Shown here: positions 29 to 47,713 of the stretch, one piece after another | Position numbering within the stretch: the first letter of the stretch is position 1 | Layout of the letters: the number at the start of each line of letters is the position of its first letter | Source of the DNA: Polytrichum commune | Lineage: Eukaryota; Streptophyta; Polytrichopsida; Polytrichales; Polytrichaceae | Direction of reading: 5' to 3' | Assembly: GCA_950295325.1 (NCBI GenBank) | Contig: OX485803.1 | Span: 9,922,001-9,986,000 of the forward strand | Length of the DNA: 64,000 nucleotides | The notes under the pieces: generated by a model | What the model was told of the DNA's origin: nothing | Databases searched by the model: none | What the model saw: the letters and a program-made list of their open reading frames with translations, nothing else | Translations under genes and position numbers: made by a program

Positions 29-3000
29 ACTGCTCTTTCAGCACTAAAAGCAGAGCTAGATGCAAGGGAGAAGCTGTTGGATGAGAGGGAGGGTACCTCA
101 CTCACCGAAGAGCAACTTCCTGGGGCATTTAGGTTTGATGCAGAAGTCACTAAGTCCAATGAAAACCAGCGTCACAAAGTGGTATCTGGCTCTCAAATTG
201 GCACTAGACACAGGCAGGTTCAAGCTGATGTACAACCATCAGCCAGGACTAATGGAAATCACAAAGCTACTGCAACTACAAATTCACCCAATCCTCCAGT
301 ACAAGAAGGAGGTGTCAATGTCCTATCAATCGTTAAGGTGGAATCTGTGGGTCAGGAGGATATTGTTAGTGACAATGTGCAAAACAGGCATGACTCTGGT
401 AAGTCAGCTATGAATTGAATTTTGTCCATGGAAGGTTAGTCTTTCCTCAATTTTGCAAAAACAAGGTTATTCTTTTAATTTAAAATTTTTATAGCCTTCG
501 TCTTAGTTTGCTATGACACCTCAAATGAACGGAGTTGACCCTTTGCCTTAGTTTGTTGCAGCCATGAGCTGGGACATCATACCTAGTTCTGTTTTACAGA
601 ATGACTGTAGGTGAGGATTTCTTGAATTCAGTGTTTTAATCAGTATGTGGAAGTCATCTCTGCAAACTGGCCACTTGCTCTCTAATATAGAATATGCTGG
701 GTTCTTGCTTAGCTGGAAGGAAATTTTCATGTCAGTGGTTGTTTTCTCCGACTTTGGGTCTCCTTTGTGGGTAGCAACAATAATTGAATGCTCTGAGATA
801 CAATGGAGTCTCACTGATCAATACATTGTGTCAGGTCATGATGATAAATTGGTAGAGGAGCTTGTCTCAGCATCACCCCACACTAGGCGGAAATATCAGC
901 GAGTGGGGCTATTCCAGAGAAGAGAAGTGGAAGACTCAAAGACGCCTCAGGAATCAGAATTTGATCCTTTACCAAGAAAGTTGGCTGGGCAGAAGCAAGA
1001 CTCAAATGGATGGGGAGGCAAACCGTTATCACATGACTCCTTCATGAAGAAGAATCAAGTGTAAGAAGTCTGTTTTTGTTTCTTTTTGTGCCACATGCAT
1101 TGTAGCATGGAGTTGCTGACAAATGGCAGCAACTGTTCAAAGAATGAAAGTAATTTTGTAGAGAGAGTGGTCTTTGTGATGGATTGCTTAAGGCAGGAAT
1201 CATCATTGATGCAGGATATGTACATGTAACAGAAGAATTCCAGGTGCACTTTGCAGTTGTAATAATTCTTGAAACATTGAGAGATTCTTAGGGTGGTTGG
1301 TTTCGTTTGTTTAGGAGGTATTTCCTTTAATATCTTGGATTTTTTATTCAGGCCAATTGAAGTTGCTCTTCAAGAAGATGCACCAGGTCTGCTGGAGGTA
1401 TGCTTGTTTATAACTCGTTGAATTCATTTGTCATCTAAGCAGTTGAAGTCTGGAGTTTAGTGTCTGAAAGAAGGGAGCTTATTTTTTGCTTGGTATGTAA
1501 AATGGAGGCCTGGTTAACTTGACATGATTGACATGATTTAGGAGAGGATGAAGGTGATATGTTATGCTGTGTTGCTGTGAAAGTATCTAAAGGTAGATCC
1601 AAAGCATTTCTGGTGCCTTAGCAATCTCATATCTGTGTTCAAATGTGTACTTTCTTGAAATGTGCAGCAATTACTTGAAAAGGGGTTGCTTGAGGATATG
1701 CATGTATATGGTGATGCTCATGATGAATCATCAGGCAGCGAGCTAACTTCAAATGAATTTGGTGAACTTGAGAGTGTTGTTGGCAAGGTATGTTTCTAGT
1801 TCCAGGACATCCTTGCATTTTGTAGTATTAAATTGTGAATCACATCAAACCCTTTGTAAGGTACTCTTCCGCACTTTCTTGTACCTGATAGTTGTGCTGT
1901 GGTGGTGACAGCTCTGGGGATCAAGTAGTGGCCTTACAAAGGAGATCATTCCTCTTAAAGGACAAGCATCAAACACTGGCACTCTTCCCCGCTATTGCCT
2001 AGCCTGTCTACTTTCCCTCATTGAACAGGCACTTCTCTGACCTTCTTTTGTCCTGAGTGTTGTTCTTCAGTGCTCAAAATATAAAGTGTCAGATCCTAAT
2101 TTTAATGATCCTGTGCACAATGAATGTATGAGTGTTGCAGTTTTAACAGGGTTTGCCCTCTGAAGCTCACAAGAGGTAACAGTTAGCACATGAATATAAT
2201 GGTGATAAGACCTTCGAATATTGCATGGTTTTGAGTAAGAAGGTATATAGGGCGACCTTGAAAATAGTCAATTTTTGAGTTGTCCAGTGTGGCTTTTGCT
2301 GACAGACAAAAGCCCTGCGGCGACGCAAATGGCCAGTGGAGTGGGGCTGGTGTCGACGCCTGCATGCCTTCCTTTTTGTCTTTGAAAAGCACAACAGGTT
2401 CCATCTTTAGACCTGATTTTCAACAACAATATGTATGGGATATTCTATGTTCACCACCTAAATGATGACAAGGTGCAGTTTATAATTCCTCCAACATCTT
2501 AAATTTTTTCCTGATTGTCTTTTTATAACATGTGATTCATTGTTCCTACAGAATTGTGATAGAGCGCCCTGAATATGGATTTGCGACATACTTTTTTGAG
2601 CTGGTTCAGTCGTTACCAGTGAAATGGCAAGTTCAGCGGTTGATTACTGTTATGAGCGTGGCTTCAACTGGACGGGCGGCTCTCCTAGAAAATCGGCAAT
2701 TAGAGGTGAGTGAGGTGGAAGCATATTAGGTTATCCCCCACTGATCTATTTTGCTAAATATTGGGAAAATGTGTCAGTACTGACTTTCGAAAACTTGGAA
2801 TACAAAGAATATCATGAAGGACTTAAACAGCCACAGGTTCGCGTACACCCATGCCTTGTTTTTGGTATGTTAGTGTTTCCAAAGTGGCTTACATTAAACC
2901 TTTTGGGTGCTAGACCTCTTTTCTGCATTGTGTCTCCAATAATGTGAAGCATTGCATGTCCCAAGGAGGCTTGTTCCCAACAATTGAGGTTTGGGTGTGT

Positions 3001-3671
3001 TTCTTTCACCCAGAACCTATATTGCTGTTATGGGAGCGTTCTATAAGAATTTGAACATCAGAAAATCAAACCGAAGTTTAGATTTGTGAAGACAATTGCA
3101 ACTCACCTTTGAAACGCCACAATGTGCTTATAGTACATAGAGAGGATTCTGATGAAATATATATGAAATTAAATGGGTCAGTGGTGGCATTACATGTCCA
3201 TGTTTGACACTTCTTTTTGGCTCACTTCATTGAGTGTATGGTCTTTTTAATCATCTTTCCATGTCTCTGTTGCTAGTTGGATGTATTCTATGACATCTCA
3301 AATCATCTCAGTGGTTGATTTGTGTGAGCTCATGATTTGTTTTGGGATAGGTGGGGCGTGATTTGACACCTGAAGAGGCAGCCATCCTGGAAGATTATGG
3401 TTGGAACCCTAGTAGTGGTTTGGGCTCTCTGCTCAATTTCTGTCACCGTGTGGTGCACGACTATAACAAAGGACAAGACATAGCTGACCTTGGAACTGAT
3501 TGGAAGCAGAAAATTGGAAAGCTTCTTATGGATGGTTATGACCAGGGCAGCATTGTACAATCCTTTCCAAAGAAACTGCAAAAGCTGGTCAAGGACTATT
3601 CAACTGTCAATAATGACATGCCTGCTGTACACATCAAGAATGAGCCAGCATACCTGTCAAACAGTGTATAG
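29..3671 (+). CDS. Conserved plant protein of unknown function, 3' part (5' end outside the window)
   Basis: I do not recognise this protein. Exons read by eye: 29-398, 835-1060, 1352-1397, 1668-1787, 1912-2028, 2306-2397, 2552-2705 and 3351-3671. All phases agree and together they give 481 residues ending at TAG. The first visible exon follows a clear acceptor (tttcag), so more coding sequence lies upstream. The N-terminal part is charged and probably coiled coil (ALKAELDAREKLLDERE), followed by a low-complexity, hydrophilic stretch. The C-terminal half is compact and looks like a real domain, with YCLACLLSLIEQ, RKWPVEWGWCRRL, IVIERPEYGFATYFFELVQ and LEDYGWNPSSGLGSLLNFC in order. There is no signal peptide or membrane segment. 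The intron at 2029-2305 has to use a GC donor. I am sure it is a real gene; function is open. Confidence 0.85.
2029..2305 (+). other. Intron with apparent GC-AG borders
   Basis: The reading frame needs exon 1912-2028 (ending ATT GAA CAG) to join exon 2306 (ACA AAA GCC). The base pair after the exon is GC, not GT, and the acceptor is a normal CAG. Without this splice the frame runs into TGA after three codons. GC-AG introns are a known minor class, but the following bases (GCACTT) match its usual AG|GCAAGT poorly. Confidence 0.6.
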
Positions 3672-4619
3672 GGACCATTTAATATCAAGCCTATAGCTCG
3701 AGTGGTTGGTTGGGCCTCATCTCCACCTTGCAAGTGGCATGATTTCCATTCTCCACTGAGCCATGCTAGTGTTACCCGCGATGGTCCACCCAACCAACTA
3801 TGGTGGTCCCAGGGTCTACTGGTCATTTTGAAAGTTGTGGGTACTGAGGGCTCAACAAGCCTAGTAGGGGGAGGAACAAATGGGTGATCAAGTTGCCCCG
3901 CTTGCAGCCATTACAAAGAGTCCTCCTCTTAAGTGAGGCAGTAGCCTGCAGTTGAAGAGACTCTGTAAATTATGCTAGTGTCAGCAAACGTAGGCGCTCT
4001 CCCTGCTTTTTTGAGGGACCAGTTACCATGTCATTGCCATCATATGTGCAGTTTAGAAGGTTTCATTCCCATTGAGCAATGCAGCGCTGCTGTGGGGTGG
4101 GATGGCACCACACGATTTCTTGCTAAGGAGCAAGGTCCGAATTCAATCAACTGAAGCAATCTGCACTTGCTGACAAGATTCTGGGTTTGAGCTTGGTGCT
4201 CAAAGCTGTTCGAGGAATGCAGCTCCCAACATTTTTGTGGACTCTGGAGGGGGAAAACGACCCTCATGTACGGCAAAGTATCAGCAGCATGGAAGTAAGG
4301 CTCATGCCACCTTGTGATGTACTGTATCATTATAAGCTTTCTCTCCAGGCAGTGTTATCTAGAGTAATTAAAACACTATTGTACAACGTCAACTTGTATC
4401 AGTGTGGTTACACTCCTTGTGCAGAGGTGTCCTCAATGCAAGCTTTTGGTCCAGGCCACCTGGTCTCCTGTCTGCCAAGCATTGTACAATCTGCGGTAGA
4501 AAAGGTTGACTGTACCATAAAAGCTTCAGTTGGTCATGTAGAGGGCTCTAAAAGTTGGCAAATTCTTTGGATTTTGAAGATTTTTATACGTAGTTGCATA
4601 TTGCCTCCTCAACAATAAT
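3672..4619 (+). other. Probable 3' UTR and downstream flank
   Basis: No coding exon is supported here. The first few hundred bases after the TAG are likely 3' UTR of the preceding gene. The 143-codon open frame at 4187-4618 has no recognisable features and runs straight into the next repeat. Confidence 0.4.
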
Positions 4620-9638: not shown

Positions 9639-12600
9639 ATGGAGGAAGAAGATTTGGAAATGTACAGCTCTTTAAGCACAGTTATGATGGAGGAAAATCC
9701 CTGGGCGTCAAGGAGCCGGGGGAAAAAATCCTCTCAGGATGCTGATCATACGTCAAGATGCCCATACTGTATGGATGTTGCTGGAAGGAATGGCGGTCTT
9801 GCAACCCTTGCATGTGGCCATACAGGATGCCTGGGGTGTCTCCAGAGAGTAAGAGCTCTTGCATTTTGATCACAGTTTGAAATTCTATATCCCTTTCTTT
9901 ATCAAGTCTGACTGTTACGCTTTCCATTTTTTGGATCCTGAGACATCAACAGTAATCTGGCCCAAACTGTGATCTCAATAGCTGGTTTCATCAGAGGTGC
10001 TTGTTTATTTCCATCTGTTCAACAGTTTTCTTCCTTCCAGTACTGACATGGGTCATGCAGGTGCAAGAGAGCTCAAGGCAGCCCCTCTGTCCAACTTGCT
10101 GCAAACCTGTCAGTGAGGATTTCGGCCTTAGTCCAGATTACGACCTCTGCAAATCGCTGGGTGAAGGGGAAGAAGCAGAGGACGACTCTGAGCATCCACC
10201 TACTACATGGGAACAGAAATCTCCAACAAAGCGAGCAAGTTTACAGGAGCACGAACCTTCTCAAGCCCTAACTTTGAACAAGTCTTCGTCACAGTCACAA
10301 TCGAGGCGTCTAATATATGACCTTCCTTTACCTGAAGAAACTGGCTCTTGGATACCAGTCTCAATACCTCCTAAAGGTTACAAAGACTCCCAACTTACAT
10401 CTGCCAGATCAGAAATACCTGGTGGCGGAGGGCCTTGGTATCCAGAGAGAGTGCAATATGAGGAGGCAAGGGAAGCACGTCCAGAAGTTAACCTTTGGAA
10501 TGTTTTGAATGGGTTTATCAACATCATCGCTGGAAAGTCTATCACTCAAATGATTTCTGAAGATACCTCAACACAGACATGGCCTGAACTTGCCCAAAGA
10601 TACTCTGCAAGAAGTGGACTGGTAATGCTTCCAACTTTGTTCTTAAAGCTTCTGGTTTCAATTTCTGCTTACTCAGCAAGAAGGAATGTTTGCTTCCTCA
10701 AGTAATTAGCAGTCAATGTTTTTTCTGTGGTTATCTTACAGTCGGTTACATCTTTCTGATAGATCAGAGCAAGGAGCTCTTACATAGGTTAATGGTGGAA
10801 TGGCAGGTGACACCAGACCATTCGTGGAGATTAAATCATGCACCAAGTGCACCCCCTCTCCTCCTAGGTCCTAATGAAGAAAGTCGGGAAAGACGTGACG
10901 TGCTGAATGCAGAGCCCCCCCAGTGGATTGCAGATAGTGCTGCATCTGCTTGCATGCAATGTTGTGCCAACTTTCGGGCAGTTTCTTGTGGGAGGCATCA
11001 CTGCCGATTTTGTGGGGGAATCTTCTGTCGCAGGTGCTCTTCTGGACGGTGTTTACTTCCAGTGAAGTTTCGAGAACGTAACCCACAAAGGGTCTGTGAT
11101 GTCTGTTGGGAACGACTTCAGCCTGTGCAAAGAATCTTAGCTGACAGGGTTAGCAATGCTGCCCAGACAGCAACTCACGATGTGACAGACATGAGCTGCA
11201 TGCGAGCATGGATTAATAACCCCTTAGGGCTCACTATGGAGGATGAAATTTACAAAGCCACGAACACTCTCAGAAGTTATTTCAGTGTAAGTACCTCTAG
11301 TTGTGTTTTAAACATAGCCTTACCTTCTTCCAACTGTGGATGTAATGATCAGTGACGCTTAACAATGACATGTTAAATATAATTTTTTGTATTCTCTGAA
11401 CTCTGATACATTAATGTCTTTCTTTTTTAAACCAAAGTTGAGGAGCTTGTAAAAGGCCACTTATCTTTGTCCTGATACTCATTTTGGTCCTCTGCTGTCA
11501 CATTTCAATTCTATAGCTATTTGCATTTTCTTATTATGGCCAGTGTCATTATCTTCTGCAGTCATTCAATCTAAGAACCTTGTCAGTTATTGCATGTTTT
11601 GTGGGCTTGCTTCTGATCTGAACCAGCTCATGTTTGCACTTTTATTGTATAGTAATATCCTTAACATGGGGTTCTGTGACCATTTGTTTACAGATGGGAG
11701 AGTTAGCACCAGAGAAGTCAATACCTGATGCAGTTCTTAATGGAGCAAGAGGCCTGGCAATTCTTACAGTGTTCAAGATGGGTCTTATGCTAACGTACAA
11801 GGTTGGGACGGGCCTCGTTGTTGCCCGTAATAGGGATGGCACATGGTCTGCTCCATCTGCCATTGCCTCTTGTGGTCTTGGATGGGGTGCTCAGGTAGGC
11901 ATTTCATTATAGTAGGTTCTAACCTTCGTTGGAGTTGACACTTTCAGTCAAAGCTCACTGCGATTGTTGGGTGTGACATTTCAGTGTCAGAGCATGTACA
12001 GGCCTCACAGTTGCAGTGCACATGCTTCCAGAAGTGTAAGATAGTAGATTTTGATTTTGTGGAGCGGTGATGTTATTACAGAGTGTTAGCCTACTTCTGT
12101 TTGATCCAAAGCCATGTGATGGTTCCAGTGTGTCATTGAGGTATAGAATGGCCATTCTATTGTCTATACACAAACTCATGAAGAATATTGGGGTGGATAT
12201 TGTACTCAGGCTGGAGGTGAATTGACTGATTTCATCATAGTTCTTCGAACGTCTGAGGCAGTGAATGCCTTTTGTGGGAAGGTTCATCTGGCTGTGGGCG
12301 CTGGCCTAAGTGTTGCAGCAGGACCTGTGGGTAGAGCTGCGGAAGCAGACTTACGGGCAGGTGATGGAGGTGCTGCTGCTTGCTACACATACAGCCGCAG
12401 TAAAGGTAAGAAAACCTAGGGTGCATGGATAGAAGATAGCCAGGCTGTGCTTATATATTTCATGACCTGTGTAAGTGAGGAGCTTCTTCTTACATTCTTG
12501 GTTGATGTTGTAGGTGCTTTTCTGGGATGCTCTTTGGAAGGTAACGTTGTGGCCACACGTGCGGCAGCCAATGCAAGCTTTTATGGCGATTCTACACTTA

Positions 12601-41613: not shown

Positions 41614-43346
41614 GTAATCGATGGACAATAAGAATTTGGACTCATTCATTCATTCTAGGACCTATTTGGGCCTAAGATATATTTAAGGCGATCTAGCTAC
41701 ATACAGCCACAATTAGCACCTAAGTACACTAATGGAATCTTCCACATATTCCAAGAAAGTGCGTGTCACTTGCATATCACACAGTAATGGCATCTTGAAA
41801 ATTAAGAAAAGCACGGACACTAATAACACAAGTTTGTGGTATACTATCTACCTACTTGAAACATGCAGGGTGCAGCAACCCGCTGTTTGGCATGAATGAG
41901 AGTCGCTTCACTTCTGGCATAGACTGGACTCAATGTAAACCCGACCAAGATGAGTTTATAGAGTCAGGCTATGGAACAAGTGCTGTTGCCCTCATGTCGG
42001 TGGTGGTCTCTTATGGGCATGTGCAGAGGAGACTCCGTAACATAAAGGGGTTACTGGACATAGCCATTTGAGCATCATCTCCTTAGGCCCTCCAATCATG
42101 GAGATCTAAAGAGTTATGCTCTAGGGGAGTCATCAACTTCCCCAATGCTGGAACGACACTTCAGGCGCCAAATGATTAAGGAAAGACACCCTAATTTGGT
42201 TACTTAACTTAATCACACACCTATATTTGAGTGGTGAATGATCAGGTGCACATCTAAGAACGGACAGTTCAAAAAGACATGAGTTTAAGAGAAATTTCAT
42301 GACGTACTCAAAAGCTGTTAACCATTCTAGGCCCTATAATCAACATAATTTGGAGGACCTGTGTGGCCTTCTTATGCCTCACTGTCACTGTACTTTGATA
42401 AGCTATAACGATTCAAGACTAGCTCCAAAACACTGTGGGATTGAACATGGCTTCTTCAAATACATTTACGGATACACACAAATTCCAACCTCGCGAATCC
42501 GAGTAGTACACGATAGCAAACAGCTAAAAAGTAACCAGATACGGCACTTCTACCTTAATTTGCAACAATACCCCCCAATTGCCCAAGCCGGTTCAATAGC
42601 ACACTACCAGCAACAACAACAGAGGCGCCCAATTCAGGTTCCCTCTAATCATTGATCCCAAAGATGGCTGAGCCCAAATCGCACATTCAACTAATTATTC
42701 AACATAGGAGTATGAGCAAGAGGAGACAAGACCAGGACCCATACCTTCAACAAACTGTTATAAGAAGACTCTCAACTTAGCGTTGCTGCGGAAGAGACAC
42801 ACCACACCAAGTGCCAAAACCCTACAAACCCAACATGCACTGGGGTAGTAGTAACCACTTCAAAACAGTGGAAGTGCAAGCAAAAGAACAAGAGGAAAGC
42901 ATACCTGGCTCTCCTCCTTGAGATGAAGCAACTCACAGGCCAACAAGCGTGTGACAGATTGCTATAAAATTGTCTGAGCGCTGAAGCTTTCTCCAATCTT
43001 TTGCATGCCTGAATGATGACTCGAGTGCTATGCTAGCTTAAGGAGTGTCGGCCGTGGCCTGGAGCCTCGAGGCCCCTGTTGCCTCGTGGCGGAGGCCGTG
43101 GACCCAGGTGGTCGCAAATGCATCCTGCCATGTGTCGCTTATGTGTCCGCTGTCCCCGTACTAAGTTATTCTTTAATAAATGCGCAACGACAGACTCCGA
43201 GGACGGCGGTGACGGCCTATAACCTCGCTCTCAACGTCCCTAAGGGCCGCTCTACACCTAGAGGCCGGGCCAATTCCCCTTGAGGACGATTGCATGAAAT
43301 TTCCGCCCCTTTTGGGTTGGAGGCCGCCCTCAACTACACATTATAA
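41614..43346. other. Intergenic
   Basis: Contains an F7 repeat copy at about 42190-42375. The open frame at 42299-42655 overlaps that repeat and has no family resemblance. 42900-43010 could be a leader exon of the minus-strand gene at 40.2 kb. Otherwise nothing is supported. Confidence 0.35.
42190..42375. repeat. Dispersed repeat family F7, intergenic copy
   Basis: Shares acatctaagaa-type, ccattctagg, ataatcaacataa and gaggacctgtgtggcc words with 37725-37885 and 59335-59515. Confidence 0.6.
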
Positions 43347-43555
43347 GAGCATCCCCAATCATCCCTCAAAATAGTGACTCGCCAAGGGGCTGTGGCGTGG
43401 TCTCTCGAAAATCGCGGGGAGAAGTGGCCAGCGTGTGCCCCAACAGTGGCCCGTGAAGAGACCCCGGCAAGGAAAAAGCAGCACTTACCTGGCAGGTCGC
43501 GGGTCCTCGTGGCCTTCCTCTCTTGGCCTCGTGGCCTTCCTTCTCTCTCCCGGAG

Positions 43556-43662
43556 CTCCTGTTGCTGTGAATTTTTACCTGCTCCTCGTCCTGCTGTGAA
43601 TTTTTACCTGCTCCTCCTGCTGCTGTGAATTTTTAGCTACTCCTCCTGCTGCTGTGAATATT
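43556..43662 (+). repeat. Tandem repeat of about 30 bp in the transposase leader
   Basis: Four units containing CTGCTGTGAATTTTTACCTG or close variants precede the transposase ATG. A GTGAGT at 43663 and a ttctag at 43709-43714 could be the borders of a very short leader intron ending just before the ATG at 43717. Confidence 0.75.
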
Positions 43663-43716
43663 GGTGAGTGAGGGGTGTGGACTTTTAGTTTTTTGTTTCT
43701 CTACTTTGTTCTAGTC

Positions 43717-45027
43717 ATGGAGAGTTGGGAGGATGAGCTTGAGAGGAGCCTTGGGTTTGGATTAGGGTTTGATGAGGACATGGAAGAGGAATTTGAGAAT
43801 GACCTATTCCTACAGATGGTTGAGGCTTTTTCTACTGAGGTATTGGGTGAGTCATCCACCAGGCCCAAGGTGGGTGGGAGTACGGTTGGTAGAGAATTTG
43901 TGTGGCGTGATAGGGAGCATTGTCATAATCTCCTATACAAGGATTATTTTTCTGAGAGTCCTACGTATGGGCCAGTTAAGTTCCGAAGACGTTTCAGGAT
44001 GAGGAGGGAGTTATTCACAAGCATTGTTGATACCGTTGTCCATTTTGATCCGTGGTTCAAACAACGTCCTGATGCCACAGGTCGTATGGGATTATCTTCC
44101 TTGCAGAAATGCACTGCCGCCATCCGTATGTTGGCATATGGTGTAGCTGCTGATGCATGTGATGAGTACTGCAAATTAGGAGAATCCACTGCTCAGATGT
44201 GCATGGAGAGGTTTGTAGTTGCCATTCGAGGTTGTTTTGAGGCCACGTATTTGAGACAGCCTACTAGAGATGATATAGAGAAGCAGATGTCCATCAATGA
44301 GAAGCGTGGATTTCCAGGGATGTTTGGAAGTTTGGATTGCATGCACTGGACTTGGAAGAATTGTCCAGTGGCATGGCAGGGTCAGTTCCAAGACAAAGAC
44401 AAGAACAGGAGCATCATCCTTGAAGCTGTTGCCGACCAGAGCTTGTGGATATGGCATGCATTTTTTGGGTTGCCAGGAGGCAACAACGACATCAATGTCC
44501 TTGATAACTCTCCATTTCTTTTGAACATGCTACGGGGAGCAGGTCATGACATTAGATTCCAGGTAAATGGGCATGTGTACCCCCGCTATTATCTGTTGAC
44601 GGATGGTATATATCCAGCCTGGGCTTGTTTCGTGCAACCAATACACGAGCCTGTGGGTGAGATGAAGGAGCACTTTGCGAAGTGTCAAGAGGGTGCCCGC
44701 AAGGATGTTGAGAGGGCTTTCGGGGTCCTGCAAGCAAGGTGGGAAATTATCAAGAATCCAGTACGGCAATGGGATTTAGGTATTATTGAGAACATCATGA
44801 TCGCTTGCATTATTATGCACAACATGATTTTGGAAGATGAGAAGGGCCTAACTTTAGAGCCATTTCCCGATTGGGGATTACCTGTGGAGACCACACCCAT
44901 TCCTTTCTCATTCAGGGACTTGGTAGCCAGCACTAGAGAGGTTGAGAATGTAGAGTCCCATTTTGCATTACGAAATGATTTGATAGACCATTTGTGGATG
45001 ATTAAAGGGCAAAGGAGAAGATTGTGA
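43717..45027 (+). CDS. PIF/Harbinger transposase (DDE superfamily, DDE_Tnp_4 type)
   Basis: It catalyses excision and integration of the element, with ORF1 as DNA-binding partner. I start at ATG 43717 (MESWEDELER); the frame is open further upstream but only from a GTG inside the leader. The product is 436 residues with no stops or frameshifts. An acidic N-terminus is followed by a helix-turn-helix-like region (residues about 75-150: RRELFTSIVDTVV, LGESTAQMCMERF). The catalytic triad is Asp207 in GSLDCMHW, Asp258 in GGNNDINVLD and Glu332 in KDVERAFGVLQARW. The length fits plant members (about 400-500 aa). It ends 23 bp before the end of the convergent ORF1. Confidence 0.95.
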   Translation: MESWEDELERSLGFGLGFDEDMEEEFENDLFLQMVEAFSTEVLGESSTRPKVGGSTVGREFVWRDREHCHNLLYKDYFSESPTYGPVKFRRRFRMRRELFTSIVDTVVHFDPWFKQRPDATGRMGLSSLQKCTAAIRMLAYGVAADACDEYCKLGESTAQMCMERFVVAIRGCFEATYLRQPTRDDIEKQMSINEKRGFPGMFGSLDCMHWTWKNCPVAWQGQFQDKDKNRSIILEAVADQSLWIWHAFFGLPGGNNDINVLDNSPFLLNMLRGAGHDIRFQVNGHVYPRYYLLTDGIYPAWACFVQPIHEPVGEMKEHFAKCQEGARKDVERAFGVLQARWEIIKNPVRQWDLGIIENIMIACIIMHNMILEDEKGLTLEPFPDWGLPVETTPIPFSFRDLVASTREVENVESHFALRNDLIDHLWMIKGQRRRL

Positions 45028-45050
45028 ATTGCACAATGAAATGTAACTCG

Positions 45051-47065
45051 TTATTGTGTAAAGAATCGGGCATTAAGGTTCAATCCTTGCCCAAAATTTC
45101 TGAATCCATACATTTGTCCTTCTACAATGGGTGAGTGATGTGCATCTAAACCAAAGCTATTCCCTAAACTAAACATAGACCCTTGTTGTGCAAAAACAGG
45201 GGGTCTATTCTCTCCAAATCTCAGCTGGGGTATTGGAGATTCCCCGCAAGGTTGTGTATCCGGGATGGGTTGCGAGTCATCCCAATGATCAGCCTGTGCA
45301 TCATCTGCACAGAAACCAGCAACCACACTCAGTCAGTCCTTACAAAAAAAAAACCATTAACTGCACCCTCATCCCTACATGTAGCAACCAGCATTGACAA
45401 CCAGCATTGACAACCAGTGCTTGCAAAAAAAAAAAACCACCTAACCTAACTTGCAGCCTAGCAACCAGCATTGACAACCAGCATTGACAACCACTGCTTG
45501 CAAAAAAAAAAAACCCTTAACCTAACCTGCAGCATAAACCCAGCATTGACAACCAGCATTGACAACCAGTCTTTGCAAAAAAAAAACACACCTAACCTGC
45601 AGCCTCATCCCAGCATCCACAACCAGTCTTTGCAAAAAAAAAACACCTAACCTGCAGCCTCATCCCAGCATTCACAACCAGTCTTTGCAAAAAAAACCTA
45701 ACCTAACCTGCAGCCTCATCCCAGCATTCACAACCAGTCTTAGCAAAAAAAAACCTAACCTAACCTGCAGCCTCATCCCAGCATTCACAACCAGTCTTAG
45801 CAAAAAAAAAACCTAACCTAACCTGCAGCCTCATCCCAGCATTCACAACCAGTCTTTGCAAAAAAAAACCTAACCTAACCTGCAGCCTCATCCCAGCATT
45901 CACAACCAGTCTTTGCAAAAAAAAAACACCGAACTAGCAATGTACCCAAACCCTAAGTAGATGCCACAAAAAAAAACAAAAACTCACCGAGATCTGGCTG
46001 CACCGGGGAATCCTCCTCCACAGCAGGAAGAGGACCTGGGGTCGGGGGAGCCGGGGTGGCGTCGGAGCGGGGCACATTCGGCGACATTGTGGGTTCTGGT
46101 TCAGATTGGGGGAGCACAGGTGTCTTCGATTGCACCCTCGGTCGCTTGGTGCGGTGGTGGTCGGCGGCCCTTTCCCGAAGCAGCTTCTCGTGTTCGATCC
46201 TCTCCCGCTCCGCAACTCGCTGCTCTTGCTCCATCCGGCGCTTAATGCGCTCCAGCTCCTCCTTGCGCCGCAGCTTGAAGTATTCCCGAGCCTCCTCGTC
46301 GACATCCTCGATGGGCATTCGGAACAGGGACATCGTGGCGTGGTCCCCCATTGCCTCGGCCTTCCGCATGTTTGCTCTCGCCATCTGCTCCGTCGCTAGA
46401 GCCTGGGATCGCAGTATCGAATCCCGCCTGGTCTGGTCAACCAGATCTGCCTTCGCCGCCTTGCTTCCCTGGGGTCGTGTGGGCCGGCTCGGGAAATTCA
46501 CCTGCTTCACCACCTGCACGTCATCCTCCTCGCCTGCTTCCCCGCATTCGGCTTGTAAACCACCATTGACCTCTGCAGCAGTGGCATTAGCCATGGCAAC
46601 CGGCGACGCCGCACCGGCTCCGGAACCACGACGTTGAATATCCTGGGCCGACTGCCACCACCTCGGCACCTCCTTAAGGAGGTGCCAGCAATGTAGAAAT
46701 GCAAATCCCTGTTGTTTGGGATGTCGATCCTTGTAAAACTCAAGCGCCCTCTCTAAAACATCCTCAGCAGATGCCCCGGACTCCCTACAATCTGAGACTT
46801 GCTTGAATACACCACTGAATTTTGCAACATCGTGTTTGATGTGACTCCACTTCGATTCTAGAGACCTAGCAGGACGGATAGGACATGATCTTGGTTTGTT
46901 GTGGTTGTAATTTGTTGTGATGCGCTCCCAAAATGCCGTGTTGCGTTGGCCATTGCCACAGACAGGATCCTGCGAAACCGCCAAAAAACTCCGGCACAAG
47001 GCCCTCTCCTCATCAGCGTTGAAGTTCTTCCCCTTCTTCCCCTTTCCCGCCTCCCCCGTTGCCAT
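45051..47065 (-). CDS. Harbinger ORF1: Myb/trihelix-like DNA-binding protein with C-terminal coiled coil
   Basis: Two exons on the minus strand, 47065-45988 and 45304-45051, joined in phase 1 by a clear donor (CTCG|GTGAGT) and acceptor (tctgtgcag|AT), give 443 residues. I start at ATG 47065 (MATGEAGKGKK); the earlier frame start at 47248 lies almost in the terminal repeat and is unlikely. Residues about 10-130 form the Myb/trihelix-like (NAM-associated) domain: NADEERALCRSFLAVSQDP, FWERITTNY, SLESKWSHIKHDVAKFSG and ALEFYKDRHPKQQGFAFLHC. Residues about 265-325 are a strongly charged coiled coil (EELERIKRRMEQEQRVAERE), followed by a basic TKRPR that may be a nuclear signal. ORF1 proteins of this superfamily recruit the transposase to the element ends. 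No disruption is seen. Confidence 0.88.
45340..45935. repeat. Minisatellite of 57-bp units inside the ORF1 intron
   Basis: At least seven regular units (spacings of 55-58 bp between 45566 and 45906) plus diverged units to the left. Each contains an A-run, CCTAACC, TGCAGCC, TCATCCCAGCATTC and ACAACCAGTCTTTGC. In the transcribed (minus) direction each unit gives a poly-T run and a CTGCAGG, so each resembles a 3' splice site. Confidence 0.92.
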
Positions 47066-47262
47066 CCTGGCGTTGACTCGATGATGGCGTCCCGGAATTA
47101 TCTCCCTGCAAAACGCGAATAATTGGCGAGAGAGGGCCAAGTCTGGCGAGGCCCATAAATAATGCGGGGGCTGTGCCGTGGCCGTTGGGTCCCACTTACT
47201 GCCGCGGGCCCGCCAAGGGCCGTTGCCGAGACCCGTTGAGGGTCCCATTAGGGATGCTCTAA

Positions 47263-47713
47263 TAAGATTATAATGGGGGCCAATTTTCCCATATGTAAAG
47301 GCCTTAGGGTCAAGAAGCTAGGCCGATTCAATAAATCTAGCACAATTCAACGGATCTAGCATAATCTAGCATAAAGCCGTTCATATTTTCACATAATCCA
47401 ATGGATATAGTTCACTAAAAATTATATTTTAATTGATTTTAATTTTTTTATTGAAATATGACATTGGTCCCAAGAGCCAAGAATTGGCCCTTCATTTTGA
47501 GTACACTGAATTCAATGAGCTCGGGCCGTGTCATACCATGCATTTTTTAATTAAAAAATTCATATCACCAAATTGGCCTGGCCTCCAGGTGTAAGGGATT
47601 GGGACCAATTTCAACCTTTTGGCCAATCACAAGTGAGGATTTCATGCCTCTTACACAGCGAATTGGCCCGGCCTCTAGGTGTAAAGCGGCCCTAACTCTT
47701 TGGCTTCATGTTA
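47263..47713. other. Intergenic, repeat-like
   Basis: aattggcctggcctccaggt near 47571 and aattggcccggcctctaggt near 47651 are similar direct words about 80 bp apart, suggesting a decayed element. No gene is supported. Confidence 0.35.

Follow-up and report, generated by a model that had tools for sequence, protein, structure and literature searches.

A structurally complete PIF/Harbinger transposon and its near-identical copies in Polytrichum commune

Activity is known for few members of the PIF/Harbinger superfamily. The rice elements Ping and Pong carry two genes, ORF1 and a DDE transposase gene, between short terminal inverted repeats (TIRs) and 3-bp target site duplications, and Ping is accompanied by mPing, a miniature inverted-repeat transposable element (MITE). 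The two genes of Ping are encoded in the same direction. Both proteins are needed, and most excisions are perfect, according to the excerpted text of PMC2836001. Rice Jing is a further autonomous PIF/Harbinger element of 3,608 bp with a TAA duplication that excises its MITE partner mJing (excerpts of PMC6850418). Tandem repeats of variable number, with a 60-bp unit, are described for the Medicago element MtPH-A6-4, whose movement was shown through paralogous empty sites (excerpts of PMC2213677). The present analysis concerns an element of this superfamily in Polytrichum commune, located in a 64,000-nt stretch of contig OX485803.1 (assembly GCA_950295325.1, positions 9,922,001 to 9,986,000, forward strand) that is referred to as the window. 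It shares with Ping and Pong the ORF1 and DDE transposase genes, the 3-bp duplications and the short TIRs.

The element at this locus is very probably a PIF/Harbinger transposon that is complete and structurally autonomous. It belongs to a group of five near-identical copies, which appear to derive from one source and to have been inserted recently, by cut-and-paste, into TAA/TTA sites. An earlier sequence-only reading of the window had proposed that a TAA duplication, TIRs, an intact DDE transposase and a spliceable ORF1 occur together in one undamaged copy. All of these parts were found in their proposed places, with zero frame breaks in the assembled sequence (Table 1). The element has the DDE transposase type, the 3-bp TTA/TAA duplication and the second gene, ORF1, that define the PIF/Harbinger superfamily. 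Its TIRs measure 13 bp, compared with 11 bp in rice Jing and with the range of 14-25 bp given for PIF/Harbinger elements in the excerpts of PMC2213677.

Genome-wide searches covered one assembly of 408 Mb in 64 contigs, with about 406 Mb in seven contigs of 42-78 Mb. The window copy shares 99.53-99.71% identity with four further copies (L001-L004), from which it differs by 11-18 substitutions over 3,849-3,913 aligned bases. The proposed recent arrival, for which a second copy above about 95% identity was to be sought, is supported by these four. Together with one older copy of about 80% identity (L005), the young copies are referred to as family A; more distant relatives were matched as well. 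In pairwise comparison, the five young copies are 99.38-99.71% identical and differ by 11-24 substitutions, the closest pair by 11. Both genes are open in four of the five (transposase 5/5, ORF1 4/5; L001 has a stop in ORF1). Once columns with a gap in at least one young copy are excluded, there are 38 variable sites, 36 of them singletons. This star-like pattern indicates that the copies radiate from one source and fits one short burst. A 16-base end pattern, TWAGAGCATCCCYAAT, has 13 matches in the 408 Mb, 12 of which are both ends of the six family A elements, and its reversed control has none, so the TIR structure is not due to chance. The 13th match (L026) is a 13-base match whose partner end is absent within the 2.2 kb fetched.

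Near-identical copies could also result from segmental duplication or from an assembly error, and every count given here comes from one assembly. This explanation is already contradicted by the spread of the copies over contigs C1, C4 and C5, and by the perfect TAA/TTA duplications at the exact element ends in 6/6 copies. Moreover, the flanks of L001-L005 were found at 100% solely at their own locus among the listed match rows; for the window copy, the 40 scored places did not include its own flanks. Duplication or assembly error is therefore regarded as extremely improbable, and recent transposition is well supported. With the 1.3e-8 per site per year that is often applied to grasses, a rate which may not be that of the host, the pairwise divergence of 0.29-0.62% translates very roughly into 0.1-0.25 million years. 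The true age is probably lower, since mutation is fast at methylated cytosines.

The insertion site of the window copy likewise speaks for transposition. When the window flanks were joined with one TAA and used as a query (897 candidates, 40 scored), 40 of 45 match rows crossed the junction within a dispersed repeat; the other five were short secondary pieces. All eight sibling repeats fetched, 87-90% identical to the window flanks, are continuous across the junction without an insert, with TAA in seven and CAA in the eighth. Empty sites with a single TAA, suggested earlier as a check, thus exist as paralogous sites. The repeat that reads through the junction is a Tourist-like MITE with a TAA duplication of its own, so the element has inserted into a MITE older than itself, whose TIR (GGGCCGC...) differs from that of the inserted element.

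Table 1 Features of the PIF/Harbinger element and of its insertion site (positions in the window)
Feature	Position	Strand	Remarks
Complete PIF/Harbinger element (family A)	43347..47259	+	3,913 bp; same ends in 6/6 copies, all bordered by a 3-bp TAA/TTA duplication
Left target site duplication	43344..43346	n/a	TAA
Right target site duplication	47260..47262	n/a	TAA
Left TIR	43347..43359	+	GAGCATCCCCAAT
Right TIR	47247..47259	-	GAGCATCCCTAAT; 12/13 bases match the left TIR
Tandem repeat in transposase leader	43556..43659	n/a	29-bp unit, 3.6 copies
Transposase	43717..45027	+	436 aa; uninterrupted reading frame; Pfam Plant_tran 4.1e-87, DDE_Tnp_4 2.7e-13
ORF1 exon 2	45051..45304	-	254 nt including stop; L005 (83% aa) and family B (42% aa) share the residue at which the match starts
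ORF1 intron	45305..45987	-	683 nt; GTGAGT...TGTGCAG, GT..AG borders
Minisatellite filling most of the ORF1 intron	45382..45982	n/a	57-bp unit, 6.6 copies at 45553-45927; adjoining 77-bp and 13-bp variants
ORF1 exon 1	45988..47065	-	1,078 nt; Pfam NAM-associated 2.2e-14 (first codon omitted)
Host of the insertion: Tourist-like MITE	43244..47692	+	533 bp when the insert is left out; 31/32 bases identical between the inverted ends, which start GGGCCGCT
TAA duplication of the host MITE	43241-43243 and 47693-47695

The transposase reading frame is open in 6/6 family A copies, L005 included. Comparison of the window copy with L005 gives nonsynonymous (dN) and synonymous (dS) substitution rates of 0.029 and 0.203 for the transposase, a ratio of 0.14, which points to purifying selection and suggests that the transposase at least stayed functional while the lineages were mobile. 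Residues D207, D258 and E332 sit in invariant columns of an alignment of 15 sequences and are proposed as candidate catalytic residues; the choice among the invariant columns followed known motifs. The seven top rows of a VIA-align comparison of the predicted fold are all DDE transposases (Z 7.8 to 6.7, rmsd, root-mean-square deviation, 5.2-7.0). All of them lie below Z 8, and the fold is therefore taken as no more than supportive evidence. A phmmer search against solved structures gave none related by sequence to the transposase at E <= 1. Purifying selection would also suit a domesticated host gene of transposase origin, of which ALP1/ALP2 and HARBI1 are examples. The intact ends and duplications, the five dispersed near-identical copies and the ORF1 stop in one young copy argue for a transposon instead, and the chance of a domesticated gene is considered negligible.

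The older copy L005 had itself looked like the product of a module exchange, with 93% identity to the window element over element bases 341-1969 and 81-82% elsewhere. A chimera was rejected because dS is equal in the transposase (0.20) and in ORF1 exon 2 (0.21), a level in agreement with the 82% identity seen over the left 159 bases; the 93% block is explained by constraint on the transposase. The ORF1 intron of L005 contains a 1,364-base insertion that starts with CACTACTAGAAAAT, has a near-inverse end and is bordered by TTA on both sides. It looks like a nested CACTA-type element.

Spliced ORF1 of the window element, composed of exons 1 and 2, encodes 443 aa. Its start, MATGEAGKGKKG, is similar to MATLEAGRGKKG in L005 and to MAGLEAGRVRKG in a sister family, family B, which comprises seven further complete copies (L006-L012). 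The predicted donor and acceptor are present in 13/13 copies of families A and B, and a full-length spliced ORF1 is found in 11/13, the exceptions being stops in L001 and L005. The ORF1 frame is also open 5' of the conserved start, up to an ATG at 47248 within the right TIR that is probably unused. The stop codons of transposase and ORF1 lie on opposite strands and are separated by 23 bases, so the two genes converge, in contrast to those of Ping. By analogy with Ping and Pong, the ORF1 protein would bind the element ends and act with the DDE transposase, which would excise the element and join it to a TAA target. Copy number would rise when a homologous template repairs the excision gap, as outlined in the excerpts of PMC10288884.

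The type of mutation that separates the young copies bears on their present state. C>T or G>A changes account for 27 of the 38 differences among them; 25 of the 27 are located at CG or CHG (H = A, C or T), contexts that hold 671 of 1,968 C+G positions (binomial p = 3e-10). All four mutations that only the window copy carries (4/4) are C>T/G>A changes in CG/CHG, and so is the stop in L001. Such an excess is what methylation of a plant transposon would be expected to leave behind, and it suggests that the copies, although recently mobile, have probably been silenced since. The young copies were thus probably methylated at CG and CHG after insertion and are now probably mostly silent, although four of the five could, by their reading frames, encode both proteins.

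Whether the window element still transposes in the living species has to be judged against this signature. The open genes in 4/5 young copies, their pairwise distance of only 11-24 substitutions and an even younger sister family with a 76%-identical transposase are in line with continued movement. The strong methylation-type signature, including the four window-private mutations, and a closest pair that is still 11 substitutions apart are not. Present activity of the window family is considered possible but not favoured, and ongoing transposition of the window element itself somewhat unlikely. The earlier interpretation therefore holds for the recent arrival; with regard to present activity, the methylation-type mutations lean against it. 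Its view of the intact copy as an exception does not stand, since 5/5 young transposases and 4/5 young ORF1 genes are open and 64 of the 96 transposase relatives that were scored are free of internal stops (counted by hand among the best-scoring 96 of 897 candidates, some of them partial).

Several observations weigh against the reading as a complete and recently moved element. Clean empty sites were obtained for one of the six family A insertions. At the L003 site, empty paralogues were found in 4/4 sequences fetched, but the number of repeat units beside the TAA varies and the site is less clean; for the other four insertions, no listed row spans the junction (40 of 1,168 and 40 of 1,154 candidates scored). 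The tandem arrays or the intron, regions of less certain alignment, contain 12 of the 38 variable sites, and L005 has the minority letter at three of the 27 C>T/G>A sites, so that their direction is uncertain. On the protein side, constraint on ORF1 exon 2 is weak (window copy vs L005: dN 0.121, dS 0.206; exon 1 excluded from the calculation), and the Pfam search for a Myb-like domain in ORF1 gave only DUF6818, with an E-value of 0.021, below the cut-off. The predicted transposase fold is a moderate model (mean pLDDT, predicted local distance difference test, 62.7), VIA-align scores of Z < 8 can be unspecific according to the note of the tool, and Foldseek gave no match to the model at E <= 0.001.

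Family B is found on contigs C1, C3, C4 and C5. Its seven copies are 99.72-99.98% identical, and the closest pair differs by one substitution in 4,227 aligned bases. Transposase and ORF1 are both open in 7/7 copies. The target site duplications match in all seven and read TTA or TAA in five and TGA in two; for the TGA copies, no listed row spans either junction of an empty site (858 of 1,320 bases queried, covering L008 and most of L011, without L009). Family B resembles the window element in gene order, intron position and the 443-aa ORF1, and identity between the two families is 76% for the transposase, 59% for ORF1 exon 1 and 42% for ORF1 exon 2. It differs in its TIR, GGGCATCTGCAGTCGGC, and in the lack of an intron minisatellite. 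The A/B split is close to that of Ping vs Pong, with 77% for the transposase and 62% for ORF1 in the excerpts of PMC2836001. Judged by divergence, family B is younger than family A, and it is a better candidate for activity than the window family. It has 22 variable sites; C>T/G>A changes make up 15, with 11 of the 15 at CG/CHG, so that family B, too, seems methylated. An 880-base fragment of the family B left end (L055, G000 C6:21376600-21382400) is 99.4% identical, and its right end was not found in the stretch fetched; it is, by its sequence, a recent truncated copy. Two older relatives of family B have no match to most of the transposase region of B.

Classification below the superfamily level is guided by the TIRs and by the transposase. 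The window TIR, GAGCATCCC[C/T]AAT, does not fit the motif G(N)5GTT, with which most, not all, PIF-like elements start according to the excerpts of PMC2213677 (Grzebelus et al. 2007). As this motif is absent, the element is not filed as PIF-like in the narrow sense. The transposase motif SLDCMHW.WKNCP, which we take to resemble that of Pong, suggests a Pong-like placement, and the Ping/Pong type of TIR differs in sequence from that of the window element. Rice Jing, although similar in size to the window element, is set apart by its TIR, GGGTGTGTTTG, by a single predicted frame with both domains and by its MITE partner (excerpts of PMC6850418). No MITE derivative of the window family was found in searches with its ends, whereas Ping has mPing: 250-base ends matched six and six places only; 60+60-base ends matched 12 places, all of them ends of the six complete elements; and the TIR pattern gave the ends of the six elements and the lone L026 match. 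MITEs with few bases in common with the element could escape these searches.

A broader scenario would combine these observations: two young complete families, separated by about the Ping-Pong distance in one genome, with at least B moving, would multiply essentially as full-length elements at a stage before MITEs arise, and the arrays in the ORF1 intron may tune ORF1. We regard this scenario as doubtful. If true, the genome would catch the stage before MITE birth. Two complete recent families without a MITE found are a useful contrast to rice Ping/mPing and bear on the question of why some autonomous families make many MITEs and others none. The first place to seek activity is family B rather than the window copy.

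Alignment of the window copy with the four other young copies shows nine gap events. Eight are located in the leader repeat or the intron, and the remaining one concerns a single base at 47081. The length of the intron minisatellite varies among the young copies, and L003 carries a 58-base (two-unit) deletion in the 29-bp leader repeat. Every 57-bp unit holds a T-tract, CTGCAG and GTTAGG, which look like repeated splice signals, although any role for them is speculation. Neither L005 nor family B has the minisatellite in its ORF1 intron, so the array probably arose after those splits. In a distant relative (L013, G000 C3:9055300-9060800), other tandem arrays occupy locus bases 2621-3316, with AACCTTCAACCC-like units of 12-49 bp and units of 75 bp that are unlike the window array in sequence. 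They lie between ORF1 matches at locus bases 2229-2426 and 3477-4386 and thus probably within the same ORF1 intron. Arrays without a common sequence therefore recur in what is probably the same intron.

Such arrays may tune the amount of ORF1. In a specific form of this idea, the minisatellite would offer a series of decoy or stepwise splice sites, so that less spliced ORF1 is made and transposition is thereby limited. This would fit the occurrence of CTGCAGGTTAGG five to seven times per ORF1 intron in 5/5 young copies, the concentration of 8/9 gap events in the intron or tandem arrays, and the arrays of different sequence in the corresponding interval of L013. Slippage, however, makes tandem arrays without any function, and the intron without an array in L005 and family B shows the array to be dispensable. 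A regulatory role of this kind is considered very unlikely. The element is ordinary for its kind, and its intron minisatellite has a partial precedent in MtPH-A6-4: the repeat unit there is 60 bp, compared with 57 bp here, and the arrays are subterminal or near whole-element, as opposed to the ORF1 intron and the transposase leader in the window element (excerpts of PMC2213677). Among the literature matches listed for Harbinger elements that contain minisatellites or tandem repeats, nothing nearer than this source, as excerpted, appeared. The same holds for the matches listed for gene orientation and TIR letters, with none of those listed for TIR letters concerning transposons, and Plant_tran/Pong terms matched no paper.

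Elsewhere in the window, positions 10055-11355 contain two plus-strand open reading frames of 216 and 187 aa. The latter has a cysteine-rich stretch that we take to resemble a FYVE zinc finger, and both are probably exons of a host gene.

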